The position numbers and the translations under genes are program-made. Under the pieces are notes generated by a model. The model did not search any database, had not been told where the DNA came from, and saw only the letters and a list, made by a program, of their open reading frames with translations. From contig VGWJ01000002.1 of NCBI GenBank assembly GCA_016873635.1, positions 1 to 64,000 of the forward strand: 64,000 bases of DNA. The letters run 5' to 3'. Numbering within the stretch: the stretch's first letter is position 1; each line of letters begins with the position of its first letter. Source of the DNA: Lentisphaerota bacterium. Lineage in GTDB: Bacteria; Verrucomicrobiota; Kiritimatiellia; UBA8416; VGWJ01. Positions 52,828 through 59,473 of this stretch are shown here, one piece after another.

Positions 52828-54627
52828 CTATGAACCCCCTGCCCGCGTCAGAATGCCGTGCTGGCGCAGGCGGGCGGCGTCGCCGCGGGGCACGGGAACC
52901 GGCGCGCCGTCGGGGGCGACGCCGGCATAGTACATCGCCGCGGCCGCGGTTCCCGGCAGCGGGATGAAGCACTGCACCTGCCGCGGCCTCCAGCGCCGCC
53001 GGTCGAGCCAGCCGCGCAGCGCGCGCATGTCTTCATCCGCCGTTCCCGGGTAGGCGCTGATCAGGTACGGCACCACGTACTGTTCCCTGCCGGCCGCGCG
53101 CGACACGCGCTCGAAAACGTCCAGAAACTCCTCGAACGCGCGGAACGGCGGCTTGCGCATCAGCGCCAGCACGCGGTCGCAACAGTGCTCCGGCGCGACC
53201 TTGAGCTGGCCGCCCACGTAGCGCCGGATGAGCCGGCGCAGGTAGTCCGGATCGCGCGCCGCCAGGTCGTGCCGCACGCCGCTGGCCACGCGCACGTGTT
53301 TCACGCCTTCGACCGCGGCGACGGCGTCGAGCAGGTCGGCCAGCGCCCCCTGCGCCGTGGCGAAATGCGGACAGATCTCCGGAACCAGGCAGCTGGCGCG
53401 CGCGCAGGCGGCCGGGTCGGCGCGGCACGCGGCGCCCCACATGTTGGCCGAAGGCCCGCCCACGTCGCTGACGCTGCCTTTCCAGTCGGGATGCCGCGTC
53501 ATGCCGCGCACTTCCGACAGCACGGAAGCGTCGCCGCGCGAGGCGATGCGCCGGCCCTGGTGCAGCGCCAGGGAACAGAACGCGCAGCCGCCCGCGCAGC
53601 CGCGGTGGGTCGTGACGCTGAATCGCACCGTTTCCAGCGCCGGGACCGGTTCCGAATAGCAGGGGTGAGCGCGGCGCGTGAATGCGAGGGCATACAGCGC
53701 GTCCAGGTCCGCCGCGGCCAGCGGCGGCGCGGGCGGGCTGAAGACCACAACCTGCGCGCCGGAGTCCTGCCGCGCCGCGGCCGTCCCGGCATGCACCTGC
53801 CTTTCCAGCAGCAGCGTCGCCTCCATGAGCCGCGCCGGCCGCGCCGCGATCTCCTCGTGCGAAGGCAGACGCACGACCGCGGATTCGTCCAGCGCGCGCA
53901 GCGCGCGGCCGTCCCGCGGACAGAGCGCATGGGCCGTGCCCGGAATGCCGCGCAGCAGGCCTTCGCGGACGGCGCGCGCCGGATCCTCTCCGGCTTCGGC
54001 CGCGGAGCGGAGACGTTCGCAGGCCCGCAGCATGGACCGCTCGGCCATGCCGTAGACCAGCAGGTCGGCCTTGCTGTCGAGCAGCACGGAACGGCGCAGC
54101 GCGTCCTCCCAGAAATCGTAGTGCGTGGCGCGCCGCATCGAGGCTTCGATGCCGCCCGCGATCACGGGCGTTCCCGGAAAGGCGCGGCGCGCGAGGGCCG
54201 CGTAGACCAGCGTGGCGCGGTTGGGCCGGGCGCCGGACCTGCCGCCGGGCGTGTAGGCGTCGTCGCGGCGCTTCCGGCGGAAGGCCGTGTAGTGGGCAAG
54301 CATCGAGTCCAGGCTGCCCGCCGTCACGCCCACGCACAGGCGCGGCCGTCCCATGCGCGCCACGTCTTCCGCGGTCGTCCAGCGGGGCTGCGCGACGATC
54401 CCCACCCGGAAGCCGTGGCGCTCCAGCCAGCGCCCGAGCAGGGCCGCGCCGAACGCGGGGTGATCTACGTAGGCGTCGCCGGTGACAAGCAGCACGTCCA
54501 GTTCTTCCCAGCCGCGCCCGCGCATGCCGGCGGCGTCGACGGGCAGGAGAAGAGAGGCCGCAAACGCGTCTCTATTGCGCTTGCTTCCCCGCCCCGCCGC
54601 GGCTACACTGTCGGTGTCGTGAGACAT
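52828..54627 (-). CDS. ygiQ: YgiQ family radical SAM protein
   Basis: A 599-residue member of the YgiQ family, whose reaction is not known. The N-terminal domain shows LLVTGDAYVDHPAFGAALLGR and PVIAGGIEASMRR. The radical SAM cluster motif is CAGGCAFC in TTHRGCAGGCAFC. Later blocks VSDVGGPSANMWG, KHVRVASGVRHD, LKVAPEHCCDRVL and VPYLISAYPGT are diagnostic. It is divergent from the operon at 54680; their promoters overlap its first codons. Confidence 0.94.
   Translation of the reverse strand: MSHDTDSVAAAGRGSKRNRDAFAASLLLPVDAAGMRGRGWEELDVLLVTGDAYVDHPAFGAALLGRWLERHGFRVGIVAQPRWTTAEDVARMGRPRLCVGVTAGSLDSMLAHYTAFRRKRRDDAYTPGGRSGARPNRATLVYAALARRAFPGTPVIAGGIEASMRRATHYDFWEDALRRSVLLDSKADLLVYGMAERSMLRACERLRSAAEAGEDPARAVREGLLRGIPGTAHALCPRDGRALRALDESAVVRLPSHEEIAARPARLMEATLLLERQVHAGTAAARQDSGAQVVVFSPPAPPLAAADLDALYALAFTRRAHPCYSEPVPALETVRFSVTTHRGCAGGCAFCSLALHQGRRIASRGDASVLSEVRGMTRHPDWKGSVSDVGGPSANMWGAACRADPAACARASCLVPEICPHFATAQGALADLLDAVAAVEGVKHVRVASGVRHDLAARDPDYLRRLIRRYVGGQLKVAPEHCCDRVLALMRKPPFRAFEEFLDVFERVSRAAGREQYVVPYLISAYPGTADEDMRALRGWLDRRRWRPRQVQCFIPLPGTAAAAMYYAGVAPDGAPVPVPRGDAARLRQHGILTRAGGS
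54581..54609 (+). promoter_or_regulatory. Predicted promoter for the DUF5698/glycosyltransferase/radical SAM operon
   Basis: TTGCTT, 17 bp, TACACT lies inside the 5' end of the divergent ygiQ gene. The leader would be about 65 nt, and the first gene has a strong AAAGGAGGAG ribosome-binding site. Confidence 0.45.
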
Positions 54628-54679
54628 GGCATCAACAGCAGTCTAGCAGAACGGATGATGGCGGGAAAGGAGGAGCCCT

Positions 54680-55048
54680 ATGAACCTCCTCCCGACGATT
54701 CTGCTCTATGTCGGCGTCGGCTGCGGGGAATGGTATCTCGCCTTGCGGCGTACCTTGGCGTGCGCGCGCGGCGAGAAGGCTGCCATGGTCGGTATTGTCT
54801 TTATCGAAAATCTCTTGGGATTATGGGTTTTGTCGAATTTCATCCGTACCAACAACTGGCTCCTTGCCCTGAGCTACTCTTCGGGCGCCGCTTTGGGCGC
54901 CCTGCTCGTGTCGGGTAGAGCCGTCGCGCCCCGCCCGCATCCCCCGGAGAACCGGCAATGCGGTCGAATCGCCCTTGACTCTGGGCGGACGGCGTTCGAC
55001 CATGCTGGCCGTTCGCCCGCCGCGAGGGGCGGGGAGGGCCGGGCGTGA
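54680..55048 (+). CDS. DUF5698-like small membrane protein
   Basis: A 122-residue protein whose first 78 residues form three hydrophobic helices with polar marks resembling DUF5698: GVGCGEWYLALRRTLACARGEK, FIENLLGLWVLSNFI and ALSYSSGAALGALLV. The remaining 44 residues are charged and unrelated. AAAGGAGGAG precedes the ATG. It is AT-richer than its neighbours over 54700-54870. Its stop overlaps the GTG of the next gene (GTGA), making a three-gene operon. Confidence 0.75.
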   Translation: MNLLPTILLYVGVGCGEWYLALRRTLACARGEKAAMVGIVFIENLLGLWVLSNFIRTNNWLLALSYSSGAALGALLVSGRAVAPRPHPPENRQCGRIALDSGRTAFDHAGRSPAARGGEGRA

Positions 55049-56166
55049 AACGCGTTCTCATATTGTACGCCGTGCAAAACAGCGGCCACCACGCCGCGGC
55101 GCGCTGCCTGGAACGGGCCTTCCGCGCGCACGGGCCGGACATCGCGCCGCTGTGCATCGACCTGCTGCAGCACACGCACCCCCGCTGGAACCGGATCGTC
55201 GAGCGCATGTACATGACCACGATCCGTCGCACGCCGGAGCTGTGGGACGCCCTCTACGACAACTTCTGGGTCGAATTCCTGACGCGCCGCGTACGGCAGA
55301 TCATCCAGAAGGGCGGCAGCGCGTCGCTGCAGCGCCTCATGGCCGACTTCGACCCGGACGCCGTGGTCTGCACGCAGGCCTACCCCCTGGCGGTCATAAC
55401 CAACTTCGTGTCGCGCCGGGAGCGGATCATTCCCCTTTTCGGGGTAACGACGGACTACGTGCCGCACCGTTTCTGGATCAACCACGCGCCCAACGTTCAC
55501 TACGTCGTGCCCATCGAGTCGGCCGCGGCCCGGCTGATGTGGCTGGGCATCGGCCGCGAGCGCGTCCGCGTGTTCGGCATCCCGGTCACGGGCGACGGCG
55601 CGCCCGCGCCCGATCCCCCCGCCCGCCCGTCCGAGAAACGGCGCGTCCTGGCCATGGGCGGCAGCCGGGGCATGGGCGTGCTCTTCCGGACCGTGCGCAA
55701 CCTGGATCGCAGCCCCGCGCCGTTCACGATCGACGTGGTCTGCGGAACGAACAACCGCCTGCGCCGGCGCCTGCTCAGGAACCGCCGCCGCTTCAGCCAC
55801 CCCATCCGCATCCGCGGCTACGTGCGCGACGCGGCGCGCCTCATGCCGCGCGCCGACCTGATGCTCACCAAGGCCGGGGGCCTGACGCTGGCCGAGGCGG
55901 CCTGCGCCGGCCTGCCCCTGTTGCTGCTGCGGCCGCTGCCCGGCCAGGAAAGACAGAACACCGCGGTCATGGTGCACCACGGCGCGGCCCTGCAGGTTGA
56001 AAGCGAGCACGACGTGGCGCGCAGCGTCACCGCCCTGCTGGGCAACGGCGACCTGCTGCGCATGATGCGCGCCAAGGCCCGGGCCCTGGCGCGGCCCGAC
56101 GCCGCCGCGCGCATCGTGCGGCACGTGCTGGAATGCATTCACGACCGGCCCGGGACCGCAACGTGA
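55045..56166 (+). CDS. MGDG synthase/processive diacylglycerol glycosyltransferase-like enzyme
   Basis: A 373-residue GT-B enzyme of the MurG/MGDG-synthase (GT28) group. The N-terminal SGHHAAARCLERAF is the signature of diacylglycerol glycosyltransferases. The middle has FGVTTDYVPHRFWI and the C-terminal domain has AMGGSRGMGVLFRTV and LTKAGGLTLAEAACAGLPLLLLRPLPGQE, the nucleotide-sugar site. It starts with GTG and ends overlapping the next GTG start (GTGA). A membrane lipid is the probable acceptor, and the sugar donor is unknown. Confidence 0.88.
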   Translation: MKRVLILYAVQNSGHHAAARCLERAFRAHGPDIAPLCIDLLQHTHPRWNRIVERMYMTTIRRTPELWDALYDNFWVEFLTRRVRQIIQKGGSASLQRLMADFDPDAVVCTQAYPLAVITNFVSRRERIIPLFGVTTDYVPHRFWINHAPNVHYVVPIESAAARLMWLGIGRERVRVFGIPVTGDGAPAPDPPARPSEKRRVLAMGGSRGMGVLFRTVRNLDRSPAPFTIDVVCGTNNRLRRRLLRNRRRFSHPIRIRGYVRDAARLMPRADLMLTKAGGLTLAEAACAGLPLLLLRPLPGQERQNTAVMVHHGAALQVESEHDVARSVTALLGNGDLLRMMRAKARALARPDAAARIVRHVLECIHDRPGTAT

Positions 56167-57872
56167 GCGCCCGCCGCCGCATCCTGTTCCTCCAGCTCCC
56201 GCTGCTGGACAACGATCCTGCCGGCGCCGCCGAGAACAGCCGCCTGGCCGCCGCGTACCTCCGCCACGCGATGGAACGCGGCGGCGAAGACCGCCACTAC
56301 GAGGCCGTCATCGCCGGAGCGGAGACCGACCGCTTCGACGACCGCCGGCTGCTGGCGTGGATTGTCGCCCGGCGGCCCGACGTCGTCGCCGCGACCCTCT
56401 ACGTCTGGAACGTGGAGCGGACCGTCCGCGTACTGCGCGCGGCGCGGTGCCGGCTGCCGGGGCTGGTCGTTCTCGCCGGCGGACCCGAAGCCGCGCGGCC
56501 GCACCCCTTCCTCTTCCGCGCCCGCCTGGCCGACGCCGTGGTCTGCGGCGAAGGCGAGCCGGTCTTCGCCGCGATCCTGCGCCGCCTGCGCGGGGGCCGG
56601 GGCGCCGGCTACGCCAACGTGGCCTGGCGCGCGGCGCGCGGCTACCGCTGGGGACGCCGCCCGCCGCCCCGCCCCGCGCTGGAGCGCATGCTGCCGCCGG
56701 CGGACTTCGCGCTCGGCCGCCCGGACGCCAACGGCGTGGCCTGCATGGAGACCGCCCGCGGATGCACGGCGCACTGCGCCTTCTGCCGTTACCCCGGGCA
56801 CCGTCCCGGAATCAGCGCGCTGCCCGTGTCCGACGTCGTCGCCCGCGTACGCGCCCTGCGCCGCCGCGGCGCGCGCGAGATTCGCTTTATCGATCCCACC
56901 TTCAACGCGCGCCCCGCTTTCCATGAACTGCTCCGCGCCCTGGCGCGGCTCAACGCCGACGGCCGGCTCTCCTTTTGCGCGGAACTGCGGGCGGACACGG
57001 TCACGGCGGAAACGGCCGCGCTGCTGGCCGCGGCCGGGGTGCGCGCGATCGAGATCGGCGTGCAGAGCAGCGACCCGGCCGTGCTGCGGGCCGTGCGCCG
57101 GCCGGGACGTCCCGACCGGGTCATGCCGGGCATCGCCCGCCTGTCCCGGCAGCGCCTGGAGCTCACGCTGGACGTGATGTGCGGCCTGCCCGGCCAGACC
57201 GCCGCCGACGTCCGCGCGACCGTGCGCCGCCTGGCGCGCGTCCGCGGCGGCAGCGTGCAACTGCTGGACACGCTTCTGATCCCCGGCTGCGCCCTGCGTC
57301 AGCGCCGCGCGCGGCTCGGGCTGCGGGCCCAGCGCCGTCCGCCGTACCGCGTGGTGGCGACGCCCGCCATGTCCGCCGCGGAGATGCTCGAAGCGCACGC
57401 GTCCGCCGCCCCCTTCCTGGGCGGACGGCCCGACAGTCCGGCCCGCCGTTTCGTCGGGCGCCGCCTGCCGGACCTGTTCCGCGAACGCGTCATCGTGGAC
57501 CTCGACGCGCCGGCGCGCGTCCCGCGCATCGGCGGAACGGAAAACCGCCGCGCCCTGCTGTTCCGCCACGACCGCCTGTTCGCGAAGCGCGCGGCGGTGT
57601 GCGCGGCCGTCCGCGCGGCCGTCCGCGCGGAACCCGACATGCTGTGGCAGTTCGTGCTCCGCCCCGCGTGGGAGGAGCCGCTGGACCTGCTGGACGCGAT
57701 GATCGCGACCATTGACGGCTTCCCGGAGCACTACGCCGACCGCCTGCTGGTGCGTCCCCCCGGCAGCCGGCGGGTTTCGCGGCGGGTGTTCGTGCTGCTG
57801 CGCCGCGGCCGCGGGTATGATCCGTCGTGGACGGCCGAAGCGGAGGCCCTGCTCGGCCGCGCCTTCTACTGA
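56163..57872 (+). CDS. B12-binding-domain radical SAM protein in lipid-glycosyltransferase operon
   Basis: A 569-residue protein. Residues 1-150 look like a cobalamin-binding Rossmann domain (PDVVAATLYVWNVERTV, LVVLAGGPEAARPHPF, AVVCGEGEPVF). The radical SAM domain has the motif CTAHCAFC in TARGCTAHCAFC, RFIDPTFNARP, IEIGVQSSDPAVL and LDVMCGLPGQTAADV. The C-terminal region (DUF4080-like) contains SRRVFVLLRRGR. GTG 56163 overlaps the upstream stop. Methylation or another carbon-centred modification of a lipid or glycolipid is a reasonable guess from the operon; nothing proves it. Confidence 0.85.
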   Translation: MSARRRILFLQLPLLDNDPAGAAENSRLAAAYLRHAMERGGEDRHYEAVIAGAETDRFDDRRLLAWIVARRPDVVAATLYVWNVERTVRVLRAARCRLPGLVVLAGGPEAARPHPFLFRARLADAVVCGEGEPVFAAILRRLRGGRGAGYANVAWRAARGYRWGRRPPPRPALERMLPPADFALGRPDANGVACMETARGCTAHCAFCRYPGHRPGISALPVSDVVARVRALRRRGAREIRFIDPTFNARPAFHELLRALARLNADGRLSFCAELRADTVTAETAALLAAAGVRAIEIGVQSSDPAVLRAVRRPGRPDRVMPGIARLSRQRLELTLDVMCGLPGQTAADVRATVRRLARVRGGSVQLLDTLLIPGCALRQRRARLGLRAQRRPPYRVVATPAMSAAEMLEAHASAAPFLGGRPDSPARRFVGRRLPDLFRERVIVDLDAPARVPRIGGTENRRALLFRHDRLFAKRAAVCAAVRAAVRAEPDMLWQFVLRPAWEEPLDLLDAMIATIDGFPEHYADRLLVRPPGSRRVSRRVFVLLRRGRGYDPSWTAEAEALLGRAFY

Positions 57873-57926: not shown

Positions 57927-58403
57927 CTATTCCCCGGCAAACCTGAAGCTGCGGCCGTCGCTGGTGAAATGGAGCATGGCGTTGGGCGCGTTGGACTGCG
58001 ACGCCAGCAGGATCAGGTCCGTGAAGCCGTCCCTCCGGCTGCTGATCACGCCGATGATGTCGCCGGCCACAACGGGCCGCACCCAGCCGCCTCTGTAGTA
58101 AAGGCTGCCTTGCGCGTCCGGCCCGGCCCCGCGCCGCTGGATGTATATGCCCACGCGGCTCCCGCCGTCTTCGTCCTTCTCGACCACGGCCAGGTCGCTC
58201 AAACCGTCCAGATCGAAGTCCGCTTCGACCAGCCTGCCCTTTTCCGCGACGGTGATTTCGTCGCCCGAAACGGTCTCCACGGTGTTGGTGAACGAAAAGA
58301 CGGTAGCCGCCGGCTTGACCGCCGGCGGCGGCTCTTCCCGCGTTCCGCCGCAACCGGCGCACACAACGATCGCAAGCACCCCGGCCGGGACGATTCGCAT
58401 CAT
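57927..58403 (-). CDS. Putative lipoprotein with FG-GAP-like repeat
   Basis: A 158-residue protein with a lipoprotein-type signal (VPAGVLAIVVCAGC, Cys at about 18). The body contains a short FG-GAP/VCBS-like motif, EADFDLDGLSDLAVVEK, and a related one, RRDGFTDLILL, which often bind calcium on surface proteins. GGGGGAGGTG precedes the ATG, and a second ATG follows immediately. It is convergent with the radical SAM operon and stands alone. Confidence 0.7.
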   Translation of the reverse strand: MMRIVPAGVLAIVVCAGCGGTREEPPPAVKPAATVFSFTNTVETVSGDEITVAEKGRLVEADFDLDGLSDLAVVEKDEDGGSRVGIYIQRRGAGPDAQGSLYYRGGWVRPVVAGDIIGVISSRRDGFTDLILLASQSNAPNAMLHFTSDGRSFRFAGE

Positions 58404-58513: not shown

Positions 58514-58573
58514 ACGGTGCCCACGCGCGGAACAGCATACGGCGTCCGCGACGCCGGCGCAAGGATCCTTCGC

Positions 58574-59473
58574 ATGACAACGGACGTGTTCCGCGCAATA
58601 TGGAATGCCTGGCCCGCCGAGACGCCGGCGGCGCAACTCGCGGGCCTCGCGGCGCTGCTCCTTCTGGCGGGCGGCATCGCCGCGGACGTCGCGCTCCTCG
58701 CGCGTCATCGGGACGAACGGCGCCGGCAGGAAAGCGTGAAGGGCGTCCTGCTTGCCCGCCCCTGGCCGTGGCGCACGGCGGCGCCGGTTCTGCTGGCGTT
58801 CGCGCTGGTGAATCTGGCGTTCACGGGCGCGCTCGGCATGCTGGCGGAGGGCGTCGGGGAGCCGGGCCGCGTCTTCCTCGCCGTGGCGATCATCGCGCAG
58901 ACGCTGGTCTTTCACGGCGCCGGCCTGGCCGTGATCGCGTACCTCGCGCGCGCCGGCGGCGGGGCGTGGCGCGATTGCCTCGGCCTGCGGAGCGAAGGGC
59001 TCTGGCGGCAGGTCAGGCAGGGCGGTTTCTACTACCTGGCCGCGGTGCCGCCGGTGCTGCTCTCCGCCTGGTTGTACGCGGCGGCGCTGAAGGCGGCCGG
59101 CTACGATATCGAGCCGCAGCCCGTGGTCACGTTGCTCGCCGACAGCCGCTACCCGCTCTGGCTGCAGGCGTACCTGGGCGCCGTCGCCGTCACGGTCGCG
59201 CCCGTGGTGGAGGAAGCGCTGTTCCGCGCTCTCGGCCTGCCGCTCCTCGCGCGCCGCGTCGGGTTCCGCGCCGCGGCGCTGATCGTCTCGCTCGCCTTCG
59301 CGCTGCTTCACGCGCACGTGCCGTCGCTCGTGCCCCTCTTCGTCATGGCGCTGAGCTTCGCCATGGCATTTCTGCAGACCGGTTCGCTGCTGACGCCGGC
59401 CGTCATGCACGCCCTCTTCAACGCGGTCTCCCTGCTCACGCTCCTCGCGCTCGGAAACGGCGCCGCGCAGTGA
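58574..59473 (+). CDS. CPBP-family intramembrane metalloprotease
   Basis: A 299-residue membrane protein with about eight helices and the CPBP (CAAX protease/bacteriocin-processing) motifs in order: EEALFR in VAPVVEEALFRALG, the second motif FALLHAHVPSLVP, and HALFNAVSL near the end. The Glu-Glu and two His positions are the expected zinc ligands. AAGGATCC lies upstream of the ATG. The frame also opens at GTG 58517, but that lies too close to the promoter. The substrate is unknown. Confidence 0.9.
   Translation: MTTDVFRAIWNAWPAETPAAQLAGLAALLLLAGGIAADVALLARHRDERRRQESVKGVLLARPWPWRTAAPVLLAFALVNLAFTGALGMLAEGVGEPGRVFLAVAIIAQTLVFHGAGLAVIAYLARAGGGAWRDCLGLRSEGLWRQVRQGGFYYLAAVPPVLLSAWLYAAALKAAGYDIEPQPVVTLLADSRYPLWLQAYLGAVAVTVAPVVEEALFRALGLPLLARRVGFRAAALIVSLAFALLHAHVPSLVPLFVMALSFAMAFLQTGSLLTPAVMHALFNAVSLLTLLALGNGAAQ

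Follow-up and report, generated by a model that had tools for sequence, protein, structure and literature searches.

Three genes that lie head to tail in the 64,000-nucleotide stretch of DNA analyzed here (the window), encoding a small membrane protein, a glycosyltransferase and a cobalamin-dependent radical SAM protein, very probably represent a lineage-specific, probably co-transcribed group of normally separate genes and not a dedicated three-protein system. The trio is made up of ordinary enzymes in an unusual order; a recurring lipA–glycosyltransferase–acyltransferase cluster and the radical SAM family deserve pursuit more than the trio itself.

The ORF calls place the small DUF5698-like membrane protein (ORF1, 122 aa) at 54680..55048, the MGDG synthase/UgtP-type GT28 glycosyltransferase (ORF2, 373 aa) at 55045..56166 and the class 1 cobalamin-dependent radical SAM protein (ORF3, 569 aa) at 56163..57872, all on the plus strand. 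The ORFs and the letters at the junctions confirm the head-to-tail arrangement given in a preliminary description of this locus: both junctions read GTGA, with each start codon overlapping the preceding stop, and the GTG starts are consistent with the N-termini of relatives. A strong ribosome-binding-site-like GGAGG is found at ~54667-54674, just 5' of ORF1; a promoter scan returned no candidate. The three genes are probably co-transcribed. Four-base overlaps are unremarkable in themselves, since they occur in 4 of the 30 same-strand neighbor pairs within the window (crude gene calls), and the fixed protein ratio that had been proposed does not follow from the overlaps alone. Still, with two junctions overlapping, joint translation may have been selected for in this lineage, which counts against the reading as normally separate genes. 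A YgiQ-family radical SAM protein outside the trio (52828..54627, minus strand; TIGR03904 1.5e-208, above cut-off) is encoded divergently, 52 bp away. On the 3' side are genes for an FG-GAP-like lipoprotein (57927-58403, minus strand) and a CPBP-family membrane protease (58517-59473, plus strand).

The search for the trio covered 57 relatives, 346 class genomes and 80 SAM loci of a species-level genome collection; a phylum sample of 388 genomes was searched for the small protein only. The genomes compared belong to other genera and families than the source genome, which is 92% complete in 145 contigs. No DUF/glycosyltransferase/SAM trio was found outside the source genome in the relatives, class genomes and SAM loci searched, and at all 80 SAM loci a counterpart of the glycosyltransferase or DUF gene was absent from the flanks, which were followed for up to 8 kb. 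The preliminary description had proposed a functional trio and had itself named restriction to this genome as evidence to the contrary; the genome search that it called for finds the trio here only, and the proposal is not upheld. The two genomes with ORF1-like orthologues lack the other two trio genes. Among 345 class-mates, the clade to which the glycosyltransferase belongs and the SAM gene co-occur in four genomes, against 3.8 expected (Fisher p=1), and 49 of the 53 SAM-positive class-mates are devoid of this clade, so the glycosyltransferase product cannot be the general substrate of the SAM family. In one genome (G134) a full DUF5698-DUF2179 protein (L181:5799-6371) is encoded ~2.2 kb before a SAM orthologue; we judge this a coincidence because a minus-strand gene lies between them and the protein is not the counterpart of ORF1. 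A weak SAM match near a glycosyltransferase fragment in G117 was likewise rejected, being a 25% paralogue 6 kb away.

The glycosyltransferase matches two Pfam families above their cut-offs, MGDG_synth (1.7e-19) and Glyco_tran_28_C (1.9e-8), in the same order as in the processive diacylglycerol beta-glucosyltransferase UgtP/YpfP and plant MGD1. Its match to the UgtP profile NF010135 extends over the whole length (4.8e-58, 196.9 bits) and falls short of the equivalog cut-off of 500 bits, while the MurG equivalog TIGR01133 matches the C-terminal half only, at 57.3 bits against a cut-off of 250. The best solved relatives are UgtP (PDB 9wde, 6e-35) and MGD1 (4wyi, 1.2e-23), over most of the length, and the PGQE..N nucleotide-sugar motif is shared with UgtP (GQE..N in MGD1) and absent from MurG. 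The enzyme differs from UgtP and MGD1 in reaching 197 of 500 bits, in its N-terminal motif NSGHHAAA and in belonging to a clade of its own with lipA and acyltransferase neighbors; this clade of 22 rows, with support of 100/100 in a 36-row tree, is distinct from the remaining MGDG-type genes in the class. Judged from its sequence, it is of the same type as UgtP, and is not UgtP itself. These results agree with the earlier assignment to the diacylglycerol-glycosylating type, and the grouping with MurG that had been named as evidence against it was not found, profile and structural relatives both being of the lipid type. The GT28 C-terminal domain is common to this protein and MurG, and would be expected of a MurG-like or other non-lipid enzyme; given the margin of the UgtP profile over that of MurG (197 against 57 bits), the relationship to UgtP and MGD1, which spans most of the protein, and the lipid-glycan acylating type of the linked acyltransferase, such an enzyme is highly improbable. 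The glycosyltransferase most likely moves a hexose from a UDP-sugar onto diacylglycerol or a similar lipid, both donor and acceptor being predicted.

Close relatives of the glycosyltransferase occur in a recurring gene order: lipA–glycosyltransferase–PatA/LpxL-type acyltransferase–GT2–PF06695. Across 17 loci examined in its clade, the PF03279 acyltransferase lies directly downstream in 13 and lipA directly upstream in 10, and the GT2 and PF06695 genes often come next after the acyltransferase. The GT2 of the cluster is polyprenyl-phosphate sugar synthase-like and PF06695 is a membrane protein; loci with the lipA–glycosyltransferase–acyltransferase cluster are L052, L053, L183-L190 and L193. 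In the source genome MGDG_synth occurs once, the acyltransferase–GT2–PF06695 part of the cluster persists on contig C11 (L205:12341-14540) with no glycosyltransferase, and lipA lies on C62 (G000:C62:5248-6072); the recurring cluster is here spread over three contigs. With the C11 cluster lacking its glycosyltransferase and lipA elsewhere, the simplest reading is that the glycosyltransferase was split off from its usual partners in this genome. The C11 acyltransferase is 40-54% identical to the linked acyltransferases of the clade, compared with 22-33% for other PF03279 genes. These other genes can serve lipid A, since the genome carries LpxK.

The best profile for the usual neighbor of the glycosyltransferase is that of PatA, the phosphatidylinositol mannoside (PIM) acyltransferase (PF03279), which in mycobacteria acylates the sugar of a glycosyl-lipid. 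The C11 enzyme scores 134.5 bits against this profile and 64.5 against LpxL; both values are below the equivalog cut-offs, and the partner differs further from PatA-based expectation in lying on another contig here, outside the trio operon. As the C11 enzyme fits the PIM acyltransferase profile best, the likeliest pathway would be formation of a glycosyl-lipid by the glycosyltransferase followed by acylation of its sugar, probably by this PatA/LpxL-type enzyme. From the lipA–MGDG-type glycosyltransferase–PatA-like acyltransferase–GT2–PF06695 cluster, an acylated glycosyl-lipid can be predicted for the class.

The radical SAM protein combines a B12-binding domain (Pfam 2.9e-13) with a Radical_SAM domain (4.5e-25), bearing out its earlier description as a B12 radical SAM enzyme; the N-terminal Rossmann B12 domain precedes the CxxxCxxC radical SAM domain, the order that marks class 1 cobalamin-dependent enzymes. 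C201, C205, C208 and the W82-N83 pair are invariant in 41 aligned SAM sequences. Foldseek searches with an AlphaFold2 model (mean pLDDT 91.6) place TokK (2e-22) and CysS (2e-21) at the top, with TsrM, MgmA, AprD4 and OxsB also among the best solved matches, and in a profile alignment W82 is equivalent to Trp76 of TokK, the residue under the cobalt, a role also proposed for its counterpart in CysS (PMC13331322). On account of these fold matches and the W82/Trp76 equivalence, we consider ORF3 likely to be a stand-alone TokK/CysS-like cobalamin-dependent radical methylase. It shares with TokK/ThnK and CysS the Rossmann B12 domain, the YxWN loop, which follows strand 3 and has its tryptophan under the cobalt, and the CxxxCxxC domain, and differs from them in that identity is only ~20%, the C-terminal domain is another one and the gene lies outside an antibiotic cluster. 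It scores below the curated cut-offs of the KedN5, PhpK, TIGR04013 and TIGR04072 families (TIGR04013, 92.5 of 251 bits), and the HpnJ and TIGR04072 'ladderane' profiles give weak scores. In the predicted reaction, a [4Fe-4S] cluster and AdoMet would generate a 5'-deoxyadenosyl radical, and methylcobalamin would then methylate an unactivated carbon (or phosphorus) of a substrate that would not be the glycolipid in particular.

Residues ~400-569 of the SAM protein (window 57360-57869) are predicted with confidence to fold as a domain (pLDDT 88). Pfam gave no match to it even at E 10, and a fold search of the PDB found no structure at E<=0.001 (best E 0.59). The domain is conserved and carries the motif EPHxLWQFVLxPxxEEPLDLLD. 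Of the 345 other class genomes, 53 have clear orthologues of the protein (39-54% identity). The 80 SAM loci of the species-level collection are mostly labelled Kiritimatiellae, Lentisphaerae or Verrucomicrobia, with some in Deltaproteobacteria, Omnitrophota and Elusimicrobia, and relatives of ~30% identity occur in Planctomycetes and Spirochaetes. A TokK/CysS-like radical methylase family that is this widespread, and whose C-terminal domain is without known fold relatives, merits follow-up.

Two further points count against reading the trio as normally separate genes: the glycosyltransferase and the DUF protein make two of its three parts membrane-related, and B12 radical SAM enzymes have precedents in lipid biosynthesis, among them the weakly scoring HpnJ and TIGR04072. 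A lineage-specific lipid modification system, in which the glycolipid made by the glycosyltransferase receives methyl groups on its acyl chain or head group from the SAM enzyme and the DUF5698-like protein acts as an anchor or adaptor at the membrane, would account for the overlapping genes of the operon, for the lipid type of the glycosyltransferase and for the weak resemblance between the SAM domain and lipid-related B12 radical SAM families. It is nevertheless improbable: neither pair nor trio occurs in any other genome searched, SAM orthologues are widespread in genomes without the glycosyltransferase clade, whose product therefore cannot be their substrate, and among solved proteins TokK and CysS come closest to it. 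The preliminary description had the SAM enzyme modifying a membrane glycolipid or its acyl chain, a claim whose sole tie to lipids is one adjacency and which we do not retain. That the enzyme was recruited in this lineage to methylate the glycolipid, or its acyl chains, that the neighboring glycosyltransferase makes, the DUF5698-like protein being its partner in the membrane, is quite improbable as well; if true, it would be a new kind of membrane lipid methylation dependent on B12.

A somewhat better case, though still an unlikely one, can be made for the SAM enzyme serving another membrane or envelope pathway common to its carriers (e.g. with a polyprenyl, hopanoid or lipid A-linked substrate), the glycosyltransferase being a hitch-hiker. 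The stand-alone occurrence of the SAM gene across Kiritimatiellae- and Lentisphaerae-labelled genomes, Planctomycetes, Deltaproteobacteria and Spirochaetes is in keeping with this, but a conserved neighbor that could indicate any such pathway is missing, none being common to the 42 SAM loci examined. Under the preferred reading of normally separate genes, the link between the three may be recent and limited to this lineage, and the DUF5698-like protein would be an independent membrane protein.

ORF1 matches Pfam PF18955 (DUF5698) with an E-value of 8e-4 and 20.2 bits, below the cut-off of 27.5 bits (one of its relatives scores 16.9 bits), and the Pfam search found no DUF2179 half. Its earlier description as a DUF5698 membrane protein stands as regards a weak resemblance to the membrane half of the UPF0316/YebE family (DUF5698-DUF2179); the family assignment itself is weakened by the sub-threshold score and the missing half. 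No mention of DUF5698 or DUF4080 was found in the literature searched. Hydropathy analysis indicates three hydrophobic stretches in residues ~1-80, followed by a hydrophilic tail. The phylum sample gave no match in 387 other genomes, and ORF1-like orthologues were found in 2 of 345 other class genomes (G181 and G183, 64-72% identity). Over the first 80 codons, comparison with these relatives gives a pS of 0.59-0.70 and a pN of 0.19-0.21, the mark of purifying selection; this and the identity of the relatives argue that ORF1 is a real gene. Codons 81-122 are not conserved, and their GC content by codon position is flat and non-coding-like, so that the first overlap of the trio depends on a fast-changing tail; this tail (window 54920-55045), which overlaps the glycosyltransferase start, may be a recent extension. 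The ORF1 relatives in G181 and G183 do not have glycosyltransferase and SAM genes beside them and are flanked by other neighbors; in G181 one such neighbor encodes what looks, from its sequence, like an EpmA/GenX-type lysine ligase.
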